In this document: positions 20,206-24,114 of the stretch, in pieces
How positions within the stretch are numbered: the stretch's first letter is position 1
Layout: each line of letters opens with the position of its first letter
Virus record (IMG/VR): IMGVR_UViG_3300030389_001171
Coordinates: 1-30,859 of that record
Reading direction: 5' to 3' (one strand)
Source: a virus
Length of the DNA stretch: 30,859 nt
Translations under genes and position numbers: made by a program
Notes under the pieces: model-generated
The model's database searches: none
Told to the model about the DNA's origin: nothing
What the model saw: only the letters and a program-made list of their open reading frames with translations

Positions 20206-21378
20206 TTAAGCGTTTGCAGGGTATGTAGTACCAAATGCACTTGGTGCAGTTGCAGTACCAGCATATAGTTCAACGCAAGCAGCAGGATTTAAGAAATCTG
20301 CTCCCATTGCTAAACGTCCAAGGATAACGTCACCTTGGTAAACCACTGAAACATCTCCAGAAGTTACCTGAACCTGAGGTCCGATAGCTTCAACAACACC
20401 AGCAGCTTCTTTTTGGAAGATAAGTCCACATGAGTTGTTGAAATTACTAGTATTACCATAGTTGTTGTTGATACCAGTAACACTAGCTCTACCATCTTCC
20501 ACTGTTTCACCAACAAAATCACCCTCGTTGCCGGGAGCAGTAATGCCGGGGTTTGTAGCTGATCCAGATCCAAACTTAGTACCATATTTACCAAAGAATG
20601 GTATGTTCATGGACTTGTAAACTTTAATGCCAGCAATCTCTACTATGCCTTGTCCTGACTGTAAAGCTGTTCCTTGTGCATCACGGTTTATTAGACCATT
20701 AGAAATAACACCAGAACTTACATCATTTATAAGTGCGTAGTATTGACGTGGGTTCATTACAGCTACTCTTCCTTCAGAAGAAATTCCTTTTTCATCTAGT
20801 GCTGCGGCAGCATCATAGAAAGCATTTACTAAATTACCAGCATTGTAAGCATCGGATGCATTGGCAGTGGATCCAACTCTAATTTGTGTTCCGCCGGGTT
20901 CTACAAAATTAGTTTTAGTAATTGGTGAAGCTTGACGTGCACCTTTAGCGATGGCACGGAAGATAAGTCTGTCATACTTTTGAGCTAGAGCATATCCAAT
21001 CTTCTTAGATATTTCTCCTCTCAATTCGTAGTGTGCAAGTGTCTCGTCTAATTCATAAACGAATGCACTTGAAATTAGAAGGTCATCACATGTGATAGTC
21101 TTCTCAGCTACTGGAGGTGCTCCATCGGAGTTACCTAGTATGCTGTTGCCGGGTGTGTGGAACTCGGCTGTTGTGTGTCCAGTGTAGATGAACTGTAAAG
21201 ATTTTCCATTCTTAAGAGTTCTCTTCATAACGAGATCTCTTGCGATTGCATTGTGCTGGAAGCCTTTAAACATTTCTCCACTGAACAGTTTAAGGTAGAG
21301 TGCTCTTGCATCACCTGTGCTATTGGATTGACCAGCACGGGTTAATGAAGAGGTCATACCTGTACTCTGTTGAGCCAT
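20206..21378 (-). CDS. Major capsid protein (T7 gp10-like)
   Basis: This 390-residue protein builds the icosahedral head. It has the T7 gp10/HK97-fold signature: N-terminal LYLKLFSGEMFKGFQ, then NAIARDLVMKRTLKNGKSLQ with FIYTGHTTAEFHTPG, and the P-domain region DRLIFRAIAKGARQ. Length is close to T7 gp10A (345 residues) and typical of cyanophages. Start is the ATG at 21378, with AGGA seven bases upstream. It follows the structured leader described at 21416-21690 and is followed by a strong terminator, so it probably has high, separately controlled expression. A T7-like gp10B frameshift product cannot be inferred from what I see. Confidence 0.95.
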   Translation of the reverse strand: MAQQSTGMTSSLTRAGQSNSTGDARALYLKLFSGEMFKGFQHNAIARDLVMKRTLKNGKSLQFIYTGHTTAEFHTPGNSILGNSDGAPPVAEKTITCDDLLISSAFVYELDETLAHYELRGEISKKIGYALAQKYDRLIFRAIAKGARQASPITKTNFVEPGGTQIRVGSTANASDAYNAGNLVNAFYDAAAALDEKGISSEGRVAVMNPRQYYALINDVSSGVISNGLINRDAQGTALQSGQGIVEIAGIKVYKSMNIPFFGKYGTKFGSGSATNPGITAPGNEGDFVGETVEDGRASVTGINNNYGNTSNFNNSCGLIFQKEAAGVVEAIGPQVQVTSGDVSVVYQGDVILGRLAMGADFLNPAACVELYAGTATAPSAFGTTYPANA

Positions 21379-21415
21379 TTTTATGTCCTATTTTGAGGGG
21401 TATATATTATCGTTC

Positions 21416-21425
21416 CTAACGTTAG
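21416..21425 (-). repeat. 10-bp palindrome CTAACGTTAG in the capsid leader
   Basis: CTAACGTTAG is a perfect inverted repeat about 40 bases upstream of the capsid ATG, just before an AT-rich stretch (GATAATATATA). It could be an operator or part of a promoter region. Nothing else supports a specific role, and a 10-bp palindrome can arise by chance. Confidence 0.35.
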
Positions 21426-21450
21426 AATGTTGTCAGTCTTAATTGGTCTA

Positions 21451-21467
21451 GCGTGAGACTGTCACGC
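21451..21467 (-). ncRNA. Stable hairpin in the capsid leader
   Basis: On the minus strand GCGTGA-CAGTC-TCACGC makes a perfect 6-bp stem with a 5-base loop, about 70 bases before the capsid start codon. It has no T-run and so is not an intrinsic terminator. It may stabilise the capsid mRNA 5' end or be part of a larger fold with the neighbouring hairpins. Confidence 0.5.
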
Positions 21468-21492
21468 TTTGTGGTCTTTTCCCACCGTCGAC

Positions 21493-21526
21493 GGCTTAAA
21501 GGTATCCTCCTCAGAGGGCTTTAGCC
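21493..21526 (-). ncRNA. Extended hairpin with inner stem-loop in the capsid leader
   Basis: GGCTAAAG pairs with CTTTAAGCC, leaving one bulged A, and the inner part folds as CCTC-TGAG-GAGG with a TGAG tetraloop. Its 3' strand overlaps the palindrome CCGTCGACGG (21485-21494), so two alternative folds compete for the same bases. Such competition can indicate a switch, but no ligand or known RNA class is recognised. Confidence 0.45.
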
Positions 21527-21531
21527 AGATT

Positions 21532-21578
21532 GAGTAGGGAGGAATTGAACCTCCCCAAGATCACCTATTTGATTACTC
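21532..21578 (-). ncRNA. Possible three-way junction overlapping the 17-aa ORF stop, with a T-arm-like hairpin
   Basis: Three helices fit together almost without gaps. P1 is GAGTA (21578-21574) with TACTC (21536-21532); P2 is ATCA with TGAT around a 6-base loop; P3 is GGGAGG with CCTCCC around the loop TTCAATT. Only four bases (CTTG) are unpaired at the junction. The loop TTCAATT matches the tRNA T-loop consensus. The peptide stop codon TAG (21567-21565) lies in the P2 loop, so ribosomes translating the peptide would open P1 and P2. It is not a full tRNA, since it lacks an anticodon arm and the 7-bp acceptor does not pair. P3 is convincing, P1 and P2 are less so. Confidence 0.45.
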
Positions 21579-21618
21579 TTGTGTAAGCAACGCCACGATA
21601 TACGAAAGTAACTTTCAT
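21565..21618 (-). CDS. 17-residue riboswitch-controlled peptide ORF
   Basis: The frame is MKVTFVYRGVAYTRVIK followed by TAG. It has a GGAG Shine-Dalgarno six bases before the ATG, directly after a glutamine-II riboswitch. Downstream-peptide RNAs are known to precede short ORFs of 17-100 codons in marine cyanobacteria, so the size and position fit exactly. The YRGVAY core resembles the start of cyanobacterial DUF4278 proteins (MKLTYRGV-type). The peptide's action is unknown. It could be functional, or its translation could serve to reshape the RNA structure over its stop codon. Confidence 0.75.
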   Translation of the reverse strand: MKVTFVYRGVAYTRVIK

Positions 21619-21633
21619 TGCTATCTCCATATA

Positions 21634-21690
21634 CCTAAGCCCCGTTCCATGCTTAGGAATCATGCGTCCCTTGTGGGATGAACGGACGTG
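21634..21690 (-). promoter_or_regulatory. Glutamine-II (downstream-peptide) riboswitch
   Basis: The RNA has the architecture of the downstream-peptide/glutamine-II class. P1 is CCGTTC (21685-21680) with GAACGG (21647-21642). Inside it lie a short TCCC-ACAA-GGGA hairpin, an ACGCATGATT linker, and CCTAAGC (21657-21651), which pairs as a pseudoknot with GCTTAGG (21640-21634) beyond P1. All 7 pseudoknot pairs are Watson-Crick. The conserved CGTTCA, GGGACGCATGATT and GGAACGG segments match the family as I remember it. The GGAG ribosome site of the 17-residue ORF begins five bases after the pseudoknot, so glutamine binding probably hinders translation initiation (inference). It lies between psbA and the capsid gene. 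Confidence 0.85.
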
Positions 21691-21728
21691 GTTGCCAATG
21701 TCTGGTTACACCAGAAATGATAAAGATG

Positions 21729-21827
21729 TTAGTTATCAGTGTTATCAGAGTCAGAAAGTTCTTTATTAGTTTCTTTCTTTTCTTCTTCTTGATTGCAAAA
21801 AGCATAACGGGTGACACTTGCTCTCAT
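21729..21827 (-). CDS. Small acidic ORF after psbA (32 aa)
   Basis: The frame begins MRASVTRYAFCNQEEEKKET and ends in an Asp/Asn/Ser-rich tail. It starts 17 bases after the psbA stop. Its ATG is not preceded by a clear Shine-Dalgarno, though translation could be coupled to psbA. No family is recognised. Biased composition and low length make it a candidate only; it could equally be non-coding spacer. Confidence 0.4.
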   Translation of the reverse strand: MRASVTRYAFCNQEEEKKETNKELSDSDNTDN

Positions 21828-21844
21828 TTTGTTTGATTGATGAC

Positions 21845-22924
21845 TCATGCTATTGAAGGTGCAGTGAGTGCAACTTGTGCTGACTCAGCTGAAGCCAAGT
21901 CAAGTGGGAAGTTGTGAGCGTTACGTTCGTGCATTACCTCAAAGCCAAGATTAGCTCTGTTAAGTACATCTGCCCAAGTAGGAATTATCTTTCCATTAAC
22001 ATCAACTACTGACTGGTTAAAGTTGAAACCATTGAGGTTGAAAGCCATAGTGCAGATTCCCATGGAGGTAAGCCATATGCCCACCACTGGGAAAGCACCA
22101 AGAAAGAAATGTAGAGCACGAGAATTATTGAAAGAAGCATATTGAAATATAAGTCTGCCAAAGTAACCGTGTGCAGCAACTATGTTATAAGTCTCGCCTT
22201 CCTGACCAAACTTATATCCATAATTCTGTGACTCAGTTTCCGTGGTCTCCCGAATGATTGAGGAAGTAACAAGGCTTCCGTGCATAGCAGCAAACAAAGC
22301 ACCGCCAAACACACCCGCAACTCCGAGCATATGAAAGGGGTGCATAAGGATGTTGTGCTCCGCTTGGAAGACAAACATGAAGTTAAATGTTCCACTTATT
22401 CCTAAAGGCATGCCGTCAGAGAATGATCCCTGACCGAATGGATAAACAAGAAATACTGCTAGAGCTGCTGAGACTGGAGCTGTGTATGCAACAAAGATCC
22501 ATGGTCTCATACCTAGTCTGTATGAAAGTTCCCACTGTCTTCCTGCATAAGCGAGTACTCCTATTAAGAAGTGAAAGACAATAAGTTGATATGGTCCGCC
22601 ATTATATAGCCACTCGTCCAGTGTGCCAGCTTCCCAGATTGGGTAAAAATGTAGTCCGATTGCGTTAGAGCTTGGGACGACAGCTCCTGATATTATGTTG
22701 TTTCCGTATAGTAACGAGCCGGAAACTGGCTCACGTATGCCATCTATATCTACAGGCGGTGCTGCGATAAAGGCGAGTATGAAACATGTGGTAGCAGCTA
22801 GTAAACATGGAATCATTAGCACACCAAACCAGCCTACGTATAGACGATTGTCTGTGCTAGTGACCCAGTTACAAAACTTCTCCCAGTTGGTTGTAGTGTC
22901 TCTTTGTAATGAGATTGCAGCCAT
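21845..22924 (-). CDS. psbA: Photosystem II D1 protein
   Basis: This full-length 359-residue D1 replaces damaged host D1 so that photosynthesis keeps powering infection. Numbering matches cyanobacterial D1 exactly. Present are TyrZ Y161; Mn-cluster ligands D170, E189, H332, E333, H337, D342 and A344; P680 ligand H198 region (MHPFHML); iron ligands H215 and H272; and QB-site H252, F255 and S264. Residue 130 is Gln, as in the standard D1:1 form, not Glu. The C-terminal extension after A344 ([15 protein letters not shown]) would be removed by host CtpA. No intron or frameshift is present. It sits between hli and the capsid gene, as in P-SSP7-type cyanophages, and is presumably transcribed with the structural genes. 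No Shine-Dalgarno precedes the ATG. Confidence 0.99.
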
Positions 22925-22938
22925 TTAATTAATTAGTT

Positions 22939-23070
22939 TTAATGTATGTTGTCGCATTCCTCTTGTACTTTTGTGAGGAATAATTGGATGATTTGCATCT
23001 TAGCTTGGTAAGGTAGCTCCTCATCCAGTATCACTTTGTATTTTGCTTTGTGAAATTCAAAGCAACTCAT
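22939..23070 (-). CDS. Small hypothetical protein between hli and psbA (43 aa)
   Basis: The open frame reaches back to 23202, but the upstream part only shadows hli in another frame. From the ATG at 23070 it gives MSCFEFHKAKYKVILDEELP and a helical, charged C-terminus (QAKMQIIQLFLTKVQEE). Codons from about 23100, just after the hli stop, also look coding (RVIDPYKWK), so a non-ATG start near 23100 is possible. It ends 14 bases before psbA. Function unknown; its place between two photosynthesis genes is the only hint. Confidence 0.55.
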   Translation of the reverse strand: MSCFEFHKAKYKVILDEELPYQAKMQIIQLFLTKVQEECDNIH

Positions 23071-23101
23071 TTTCCATTTGTAAGGATCGATAACCCTTGG
23101 T

Positions 23102-23308
23102 TTAGAAAACGCCGGGTATGATCTGACCTGTAGTAATGTAAGCACCAAGAGCAGCAACGAAACCGAGCATTGCAGCCCAGCCGTTAAAACGTTCTGCTTC
23201 ATAAGTAAAAATTGGGTTTGTGTTTTCTTTGTGGTGTGTCATAACTCTGATTGGTGGTTCGTAAGGGTATTCGTTATAAAGTAATGTGTCGAGATCTTTT
23301 GTTTTCAT
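23102..23308 (-). CDS. hli: High-light-inducible protein (HLIP)
   Basis: HLIPs are single-helix thylakoid membrane proteins of the chlorophyll a/b-binding superfamily that protect photosystems from excess light. This 68-residue protein ends with the signature helix: ERFNGWAAMLGFVAALGAYI, then TTGQIIPGVF. The Glu and Asn that ligate chlorophyll in the ExxNGxxAM motif are present. The N-terminal 38 residues are a hydrophilic leader. The gene starts 2 bases after the scaffold stop and is followed by a small ORF and psbA. This hli-psbA pairing next to the capsid gene is a hallmark of marine T7-like cyanophages and was acquired from the cyanobacterial host lineage. Confidence 0.97.
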   Translation of the reverse strand: MKTKDLDTLLYNEYPYEPPIRVMTHHKENTNPIFTYEAERFNGWAAMLGFVAALGAYITTGQIIPGVF

Positions 23309-23310
23309 AG

Positions 23311-24114
23311 TTAAAAATTAAGATCTGACTGGTTTAATTTTTGTACGACGTCAGCTCTATAAGCTGGGTCTGTGTCATAGCGTGGATCTCCCATCGCTGC
23401 TACAAGTTCTGCTTGCGATCTAAATACTTCTCCTCTAGATGAAGCAGGTTTGCCTTGTAGCATCCTTCCTTCGTATCCATTAAATTCGTTGTATTTTGAT
23501 TGCAATCCTTGAAAAGCTATATTGATTGCTGCTGGATTGCCAGAGTCTACTACTGAATCAAAAGCGTCGATTTGATTTTCAGGTAAGTTACTTGCAGCCC
23601 ATTCGATAACTCTGTTGTAATTAGCTTCTCCTCCTGCTGCATTCTGTACACTATTAACTTGTGATTCAGACATTTCTACAGCTTGTTGAGGAGCTTGTGG
23701 ATTGTTGGCTTGGATTTCTAAGTAAGCATTTACCAAATCTTGGCTGCTCATCTCGGAAAACTTAGAAATTGTTTCTTTACTAAGTTGACCATCATTTGCG
23801 TAGTACTCTGCTGAAGCTTCGTTAATTAAACTGACCGCAGGAGTTTCATCAGGTACCTCCTCATCACTTCCTTCTTCCTCTTCATATCCTTCGTCGCTTG
23901 TTTCGTAATCGACTTCTTCTTCTTGTTCTTCTTGTCCAAGTTTCTTTTGTAATGATAAGTATGCTGCTTCTAAATCTTCAGCACTTTTATATTTACCAGC
24001 TAATAGTTGTTCTTGTTCTGCTACTAACTTTTCTCCTACTTCTAAAGAGTTTTGCTCCTCTGCGGATAAAACCTCTGCATCAGGAGTATTATCATACGAT
24101 AAAGTTTCTGCCAT
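23311..24114 (-). CDS. Capsid assembly scaffolding protein (T7 gp9-like)
   Basis: This 267-residue, strongly acidic protein lies between portal and capsid genes, the place of T7 gp9 (307 residues), the internal scaffold that shapes the prohead and leaves before DNA packaging. The motif GKYKSAEDLEAAYLSLQKKL is typical of this family. A Glu/Asp-rich low-complexity region (EEQEEEVDYETSDEGYEEEE) follows. The C-terminal part (SRGEVFRSQAELVAAMGDPR and YRADVVQKLN) is the usual capsid-interacting end. The ATG overlaps the portal stop as TAATG. Confidence 0.92.
   Translation of the reverse strand: MAETLSYDNTPDAEVLSAEEQNSLEVGEKLVAEQEQLLAGKYKSAEDLEAAYLSLQKKLGQEEQEEEVDYETSDEGYEEEEGSDEEVPDETPAVSLINEASAEYYANDGQLSKETISKFSEMSSQDLVNAYLEIQANNPQAPQQAVEMSESQVNSVQNAAGGEANYNRVIEWAASNLPENQIDAFDSVVDSGNPAAINIAFQGLQSKYNEFNGYEGRMLQGKPASSRGEVFRSQAELVAAMGDPRYDTDPAYRADVVQKLNQSDLNF

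Follow-up and report, generated by a model that had tools for sequence, protein, structure and literature searches.

Why should a phage carry a sensor of a cellular metabolite upstream of the gene for its capsid? T7-like cyanophages rank among the most abundant viruses in the sea, and the control of their late genes is, to our knowledge, poorly known. The locus that raises the question lies in a viral sequence of 30,859 nucleotides (IMG/VR record IMGVR_UViG_3300030389_001171, positions 1 to 30,859), the whole of which we call the window; the features described here are on its minus strand. The window covers late genes of a T7-like cyanophage, namely scaffold, a small protein (relatives have hli in this slot), psbA, riboswitch, capsid, tail tubes and further genes. 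The psbA gene for the photosystem II D1 protein (21845-22924; PHROG 182, E = 2.7e-191) lies on one side of the riboswitch, and the major capsid protein gene (20206-21378; PHROG 27239/267 major head protein, P-GSP1 homologue 82% identical) on the other. Across the riboswitch region, P-GSP1 is the nearest record (88.5% over 96%). Placement in a late operon, with psbA and the capsid gene on either side, was proposed in a first-pass annotation of this DNA and is supported by these gene assignments and by relatives. A 39-codon ORF (21848-21729) overlaps the psbA stop codon; in other phages, small ORFs like it follow the riboswitch ORF, and these differing places indicate that the order of the small genes shuffles.

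In an Rfam cmscan, the sole match within the window is to Glutamine-II (RF01704), aligned over the full model (1-60) at positions 21687-21634 with 46.8 bits (E = 1.5e-8; gathering cut-off 33 bits). The covariance-model search of the minus strand that the first-pass annotation had suggested as a check thus bears out the class that it had named. The aptamer comprises pseudoknot strands CGUUC and GAACG (21684-21680 and 21647-21643), P1 (UCCC/GGGA, 21678-21675 and 21670-21667), P2 (CCUAAG/CUUAGG, 21657-21652 and 21639-21634), and a CGC triplet (21666-21664). The pseudoknot had been described as a perfect 7-bp helix: its presence stands, but the count of seven includes flanking pairs, against 5 bp and a long-range C:G pair in the crystal structure of the class (PMC6698751), all of which the window sequence has. 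The window has the binding core CGUUC / CGC / AUGGAACGG(G) together with the pseudoknot, and neither varies among 51 phage sequences; the same invariance extends to every segment that contacts the ligand (contacts taken from PMC6698751).

Across the 51 distinct phage aptamers, 97.7% of cells are paired, and the covariation score is reached by none of the shuffles (0/500). Two-sided changes occur at all 10 of the 10 P1 and P2 pairs, so the helices are kept by compensatory change. The pseudoknot pairs and the C:G pair never vary in this set, and covariation therefore neither supports nor refutes the pseudoknot pairs. Three things make the match more than chance: its E-value, a position conserved in relatives, and the P1/P2 covariation. 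Judged by its sequence, the window element is a true type 2 (Glutamine-II) riboswitch of the picocyanobacterial type. Binding of L-glutamine and activation of expression have been reported for cyanobacterial members of the class (PMC6698751, PMC6316151), and type 2 glutamine riboswitches, located on DUF4278 genes, switch expression on with glutamine (PMC6316151).

Sixteen of 20 T7-like cyanophage genomes (fetched by similarity to the riboswitch region or to the capsid protein), P-SSP7 included, have RF01704 above the cut-off in the same late region. S-SBP1 has one degenerate copy, and RF01704 is absent from the three other genomes searched, S-B28, Syn5, and DSL-LC07. A pattern scan found at least 120 stretches in viral contigs that match the aptamer; the "few phage cases" of the first-pass annotation were an underestimate. 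In a sample fetched through the capsid protein alone, not the riboswitch, the aptamer pattern is present in 29 of the 33 viral contigs with at least 1.5 kb upstream. The remaining four comprise two with sub-cut-off matches (L412 and L427), one with none (L395), and one with an unusable capsid start (L360). Across the T7-like cyanophages, the riboswitch retains its place with psbA (or the scaffold gene) on one side and the capsid gene on the other, at 227-1440 nt and mostly <500 nt from the capsid start (111 viral loci with a capsid gene). On this comparative sequence evidence, this member of a known RNA class proves nearly universal in its place: a metabolite sensor upstream of the capsid gene, kept in nearly the whole T7-like cyanophage group. 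The methylophage Melnitz also carries a glutamine riboswitch, but that one was described as glnA (type 1) like and sits beside a tmRNA gene (PMC9004378).

What follows the aptamer, as had been read from the sequence at first pass, is a GGAG Shine-Dalgarno-like site (21625-21628) and a 17-codon ORF, MKVTFVYRGVAYTRVIK (21565-21618); an upstream in-frame ATG at 21630 would lengthen the ORF to 21 codons (21 aa). The downstream micropeptide holds up in the wider sample, where a short ORF follows the phage aptamer in all cases and a YRGxxY core is encoded in 128/128 complete phage ORFs. Codons for Y, R, and G of this core change synonymously among the 128 (R is CGT, CGC, CGA, or AGA; all four G codons are used), which indicates selection on the protein sequence. 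In P-SSP10, P-SSP6, R27W, and NATL1A-7 (L006-L009), the YRG ORF is followed by a gp222-like gene (product starting MKKLALALAA), not directly by the capsid leader.

The phage locus resembles Glutamine-II RNAs as described (PMC2864571, PMC6698751) in its full-length match, its invariant pseudoknot and binding segments, P1 and P2, and the short ORF downstream; the class, also called the Downstream-peptide motif, is known to precede ORFs of 17-100 aa (PMC2864571). It differs from the host cases in lying in a phage late operon and in encoding about one YRG repeat, 17 aa as against mostly 33-65 aa. YRG peptides are encoded at 114 of 119 aptamer-pattern matches in cellular genomes, nearly all picocyanobacterial, in agreement with the link to these bacteria drawn at first pass, and 12 host genomes checked have 1-6 riboswitch copies each. 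The host peptides usually have 2-3 repeats; common lengths are 33 aa, with two repeats, and 65 aa. By its repeat structure, the phage peptide is a one-repeat version of the Prochlorococcus/Synechococcus YRG peptides and no orphan. The same YRGxxY behind the same riboswitch class is seen in the Yfr6-associated 33-aa peptide (PMC2518516) and in DUF4278 proteins such as PMM1846 (PMC6316151), although host YRG/DUF4278 peptides have two or three repeats instead of one. The Yfr6 RNA of host Prochlorococcus codes for the 33-aa peptide, and its antisense partner Yfr14 goes up early in phage infection (PMC2518516).

Since longer phage relatives score below the Pfam cut-off for DUF4278 (PF14105; 14.1-21.6 bits against a gathering score of 25.3, with one giving no match), the phage peptide appears to resemble this family and is not classed as a member; the scan rests on these longer peptides, the 17-aa window peptide being too short for it. 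DUF4278 genes resemble the N-terminus of IF17, an inhibitor of glutamine synthetase, and this N-terminus is reportedly dispensable for the inhibition (PMC6316151). PirA was rejected as a relative of the peptide, as marine picocyanobacteria reportedly lack it.

Downstream of the YRG ORF and ahead of the capsid start, the leader of the capsid gene contains a second conserved and covarying RNA structure (21578-21468). Its domain B (21468-21528) consists of a P1 helix, a tetraloop hairpin, a conserved AUACC-type strand, and a GUGG..CCAC hairpin. Domain B covaries across 35 loop-type leaders, and a covariance model (R1) built from these 35 alone, with the window sequence left out, finds it in the window with 61.9 bits (E = 5.6e-13). 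R1 detects exactly one copy in 17 of the 20 phage genomes (E < 1e-11), only weak matches in SS120-1 and S-TIP28, and none in Syn5; it has no match in four host loci scanned. Rfam offers no match to the leader RNA, either in the window at the gathering threshold or at that place in 20 related loci at E ≤ 1.

The 5′ element of this leader differs by phage, being a hairpin with a 15-nt loop, a tRNA-like junction, or a true tRNA-Gly. The loop type has a near-invariant loop, CACCUCAG[A/U/C]GU[C/A]GGA, on a strongly covarying stem. The window has the tRNA-like type (21532-21578), with an acceptor-like helix (GAGTA/TACTC), a small hairpin (ATCA..TGAT) whose loop contains the stop codon of the YRG ORF, and a T-arm (GGGAGG-TTCAATT-CCTCCC); it is recognised from relatives and their folding and from comparison of the acceptor helix with shuffles. 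In tRNA-like types generally, the ORF ahead of the element tends to have its stop codon within it. In NATL1A-7 (L009, 3742-3812) and in another phage locus (L318, upstream of the capsid gene), the same slot is occupied by a true tRNA-Gly(UCC), which ends one base before a conserved UUGGC. The element is thus like a tRNA in its T-arm with T-loop, its acceptor-like helix, and the tRNA-Gly found in its place; it is unlike one in having no D or anticodon arm and in being part of an mRNA leader.

The T-arm is found in the window and in relatives. The MAFFT alignment of tRNA-type leaders misplaces the acceptor strand, its consensus fold showing only the T-arm and domain B, and the acceptor helix was assessed separately, against shuffles: at least five Watson-Crick pairs form in 76% of 29 distinct sequences, compared with 12% for shuffled upstream DNA and 22% for cross-pairings. 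The tRNA-like junction is not the minimum-energy fold in the window itself, and ARAGORN calls no tRNA gene there. In the window's close relatives, the acceptor-like GAGUA has an alternative partner in the GCUUAC codons of the YRG ORF, and the resulting hairpin (about 21590-21570 in the window) may compete with the junction.

All usable distinct capsid leaders that were classified have the T-arm, the 15-mer loop, or a close variant, most of these leaders having been fetched via the riboswitch or the 15-mer. The capsid-fetched sample (n = 69) contains 41 of loop type and 24 of T-arm type; the other four are three loop or T-arm variants by eye and one unusable sequence (L360, wrong capsid start). 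The loop was rejected as a phage promoter, since none of 20 phage genomes has more than one copy of it, and a host origin of the leader RNA was rejected because none of 12 host genomes contains the 15-mer.

How, then, would the riboswitch work? We consider it probable (roughly two chances in three) that it is a host-type glutamine-ON switch controlling a trimmed YRG peptide. High glutamine in the infected cell would let the ligand stabilise the pseudoknot, making the ribosome site of the peptide ORF usable, as reported for a Prochlorococcus type 2 riboswitch, and the phage would produce the trimmed peptide late in infection. The peptide might act in trans on host nitrogen assimilation, as host riboswitch-controlled YRG/DUF4278 small proteins may do; given the sub-cut-off DUF4278 scores and the dispensable IF17 N-terminus, this action is only a guess. 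It is plausible from the arrangement of the locus that the phage senses the host's nitrogen state while its structural genes are expressed. Capsid expression would be mainly under the separate conserved leader RNA downstream, and since this leader, and often extra ORFs, intervene, direct riboswitch control of the capsid gene is doubtful. In thermodynamic folding of 66 sequences, the accessibility of the ribosome site did not shift between folds with the pseudoknot region free and blocked (mean 0.25 and 0.26, respectively). Ribosome-site switching by secondary structure was rejected on this ground, which leaves the expression platform unexplained by that kind of switching. The P-SSP7/MED4 pair allows a direct test of glutamine sensing during infection and of the role of the YRG peptide.

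That the folding comparison revealed no clear anti-Shine-Dalgarno switch, and that S-TIP37 is among the relatives without an obvious GGAG before the ORF, would also suit an aptamer that acts on the transcription or stability of the late message, by premature termination or 5′-end protection, and not on translation of the peptide. We regard this as distinctly improbable: the coding strand has no intrinsic terminator in 21350-23400, for which reason terminator-based control was rejected, and it is the ORF start that forms the conserved feature adjoining the aptamer. Riboswitch and peptide could, on another account, be captured host material, recombined into the psbA region and functionless for the phage, as the host copies with their related peptides and the three phages without a riboswitch would allow. 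A neutral relic would decay, however, whereas this one keeps its place in 16 of 20 phages from many genera, its P1/P2 changes are compensatory, its binding core does not vary, and the peptide varies synonymously; the covariation and the synonymous variation make such a relic highly improbable.

The overlap of ORF and leader gives some weight to an unlikely alternative in which the ORF is a cis-acting leader. Translation in response to glutamine would bring ribosomes to the stop codon within the tRNA-like hairpin, where they would open the acceptor-like strand and alter the processing or translation of capsid mRNA, and glutamine would tune capsid production. In the window, the tRNA-like hairpin indeed has the YRG stop codon (21567-21565) in its loop, and the ORF includes the acceptor-like strand (21578-21574), an overlap that recurs in relatives, and the short distance from riboswitch to capsid start would fit. 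Yet in many phages the YRG ORF and the leader RNA are separated by other ORFs, and S-B28 has the leader RNA without a riboswitch; conservation of YRGxxY at the amino acid level, with the same peptides in hosts, favours a function of the peptide itself.

For the leader RNA, we tentatively propose, at somewhat below even odds, that a leader RNA of ∼110-130 nt is common to the capsid genes of T7-like marine cyanophages and that its interchangeable 5′ slot marks a processing site, a role suggested by the tRNA swap. Processing there (in the tRNA types by RNase P or as 3′ tRNA processing) would define the 5′ terminus of the capsid mRNA, which domain B would shield; in phages like that of the window, the glutamine-controlled YRG ORF would run into the leader element. 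We think that this RNA is the more novel part of the locus, compared with the riboswitch. Neither Rfam nor the open-access literature searched contained a description of it, and it would be a new RNA family. Its very wide conservation raises a question of its own, namely what makes the 5′ end of capsid mRNA. Upstream of the capsid start, at about 21427-21412, the window also contains a palindrome, TTCTAACGTTAGGAA, and relatives have other palindromes at the same place, for example TTCAGCTGAA and TCTGAACGTTCAGA.
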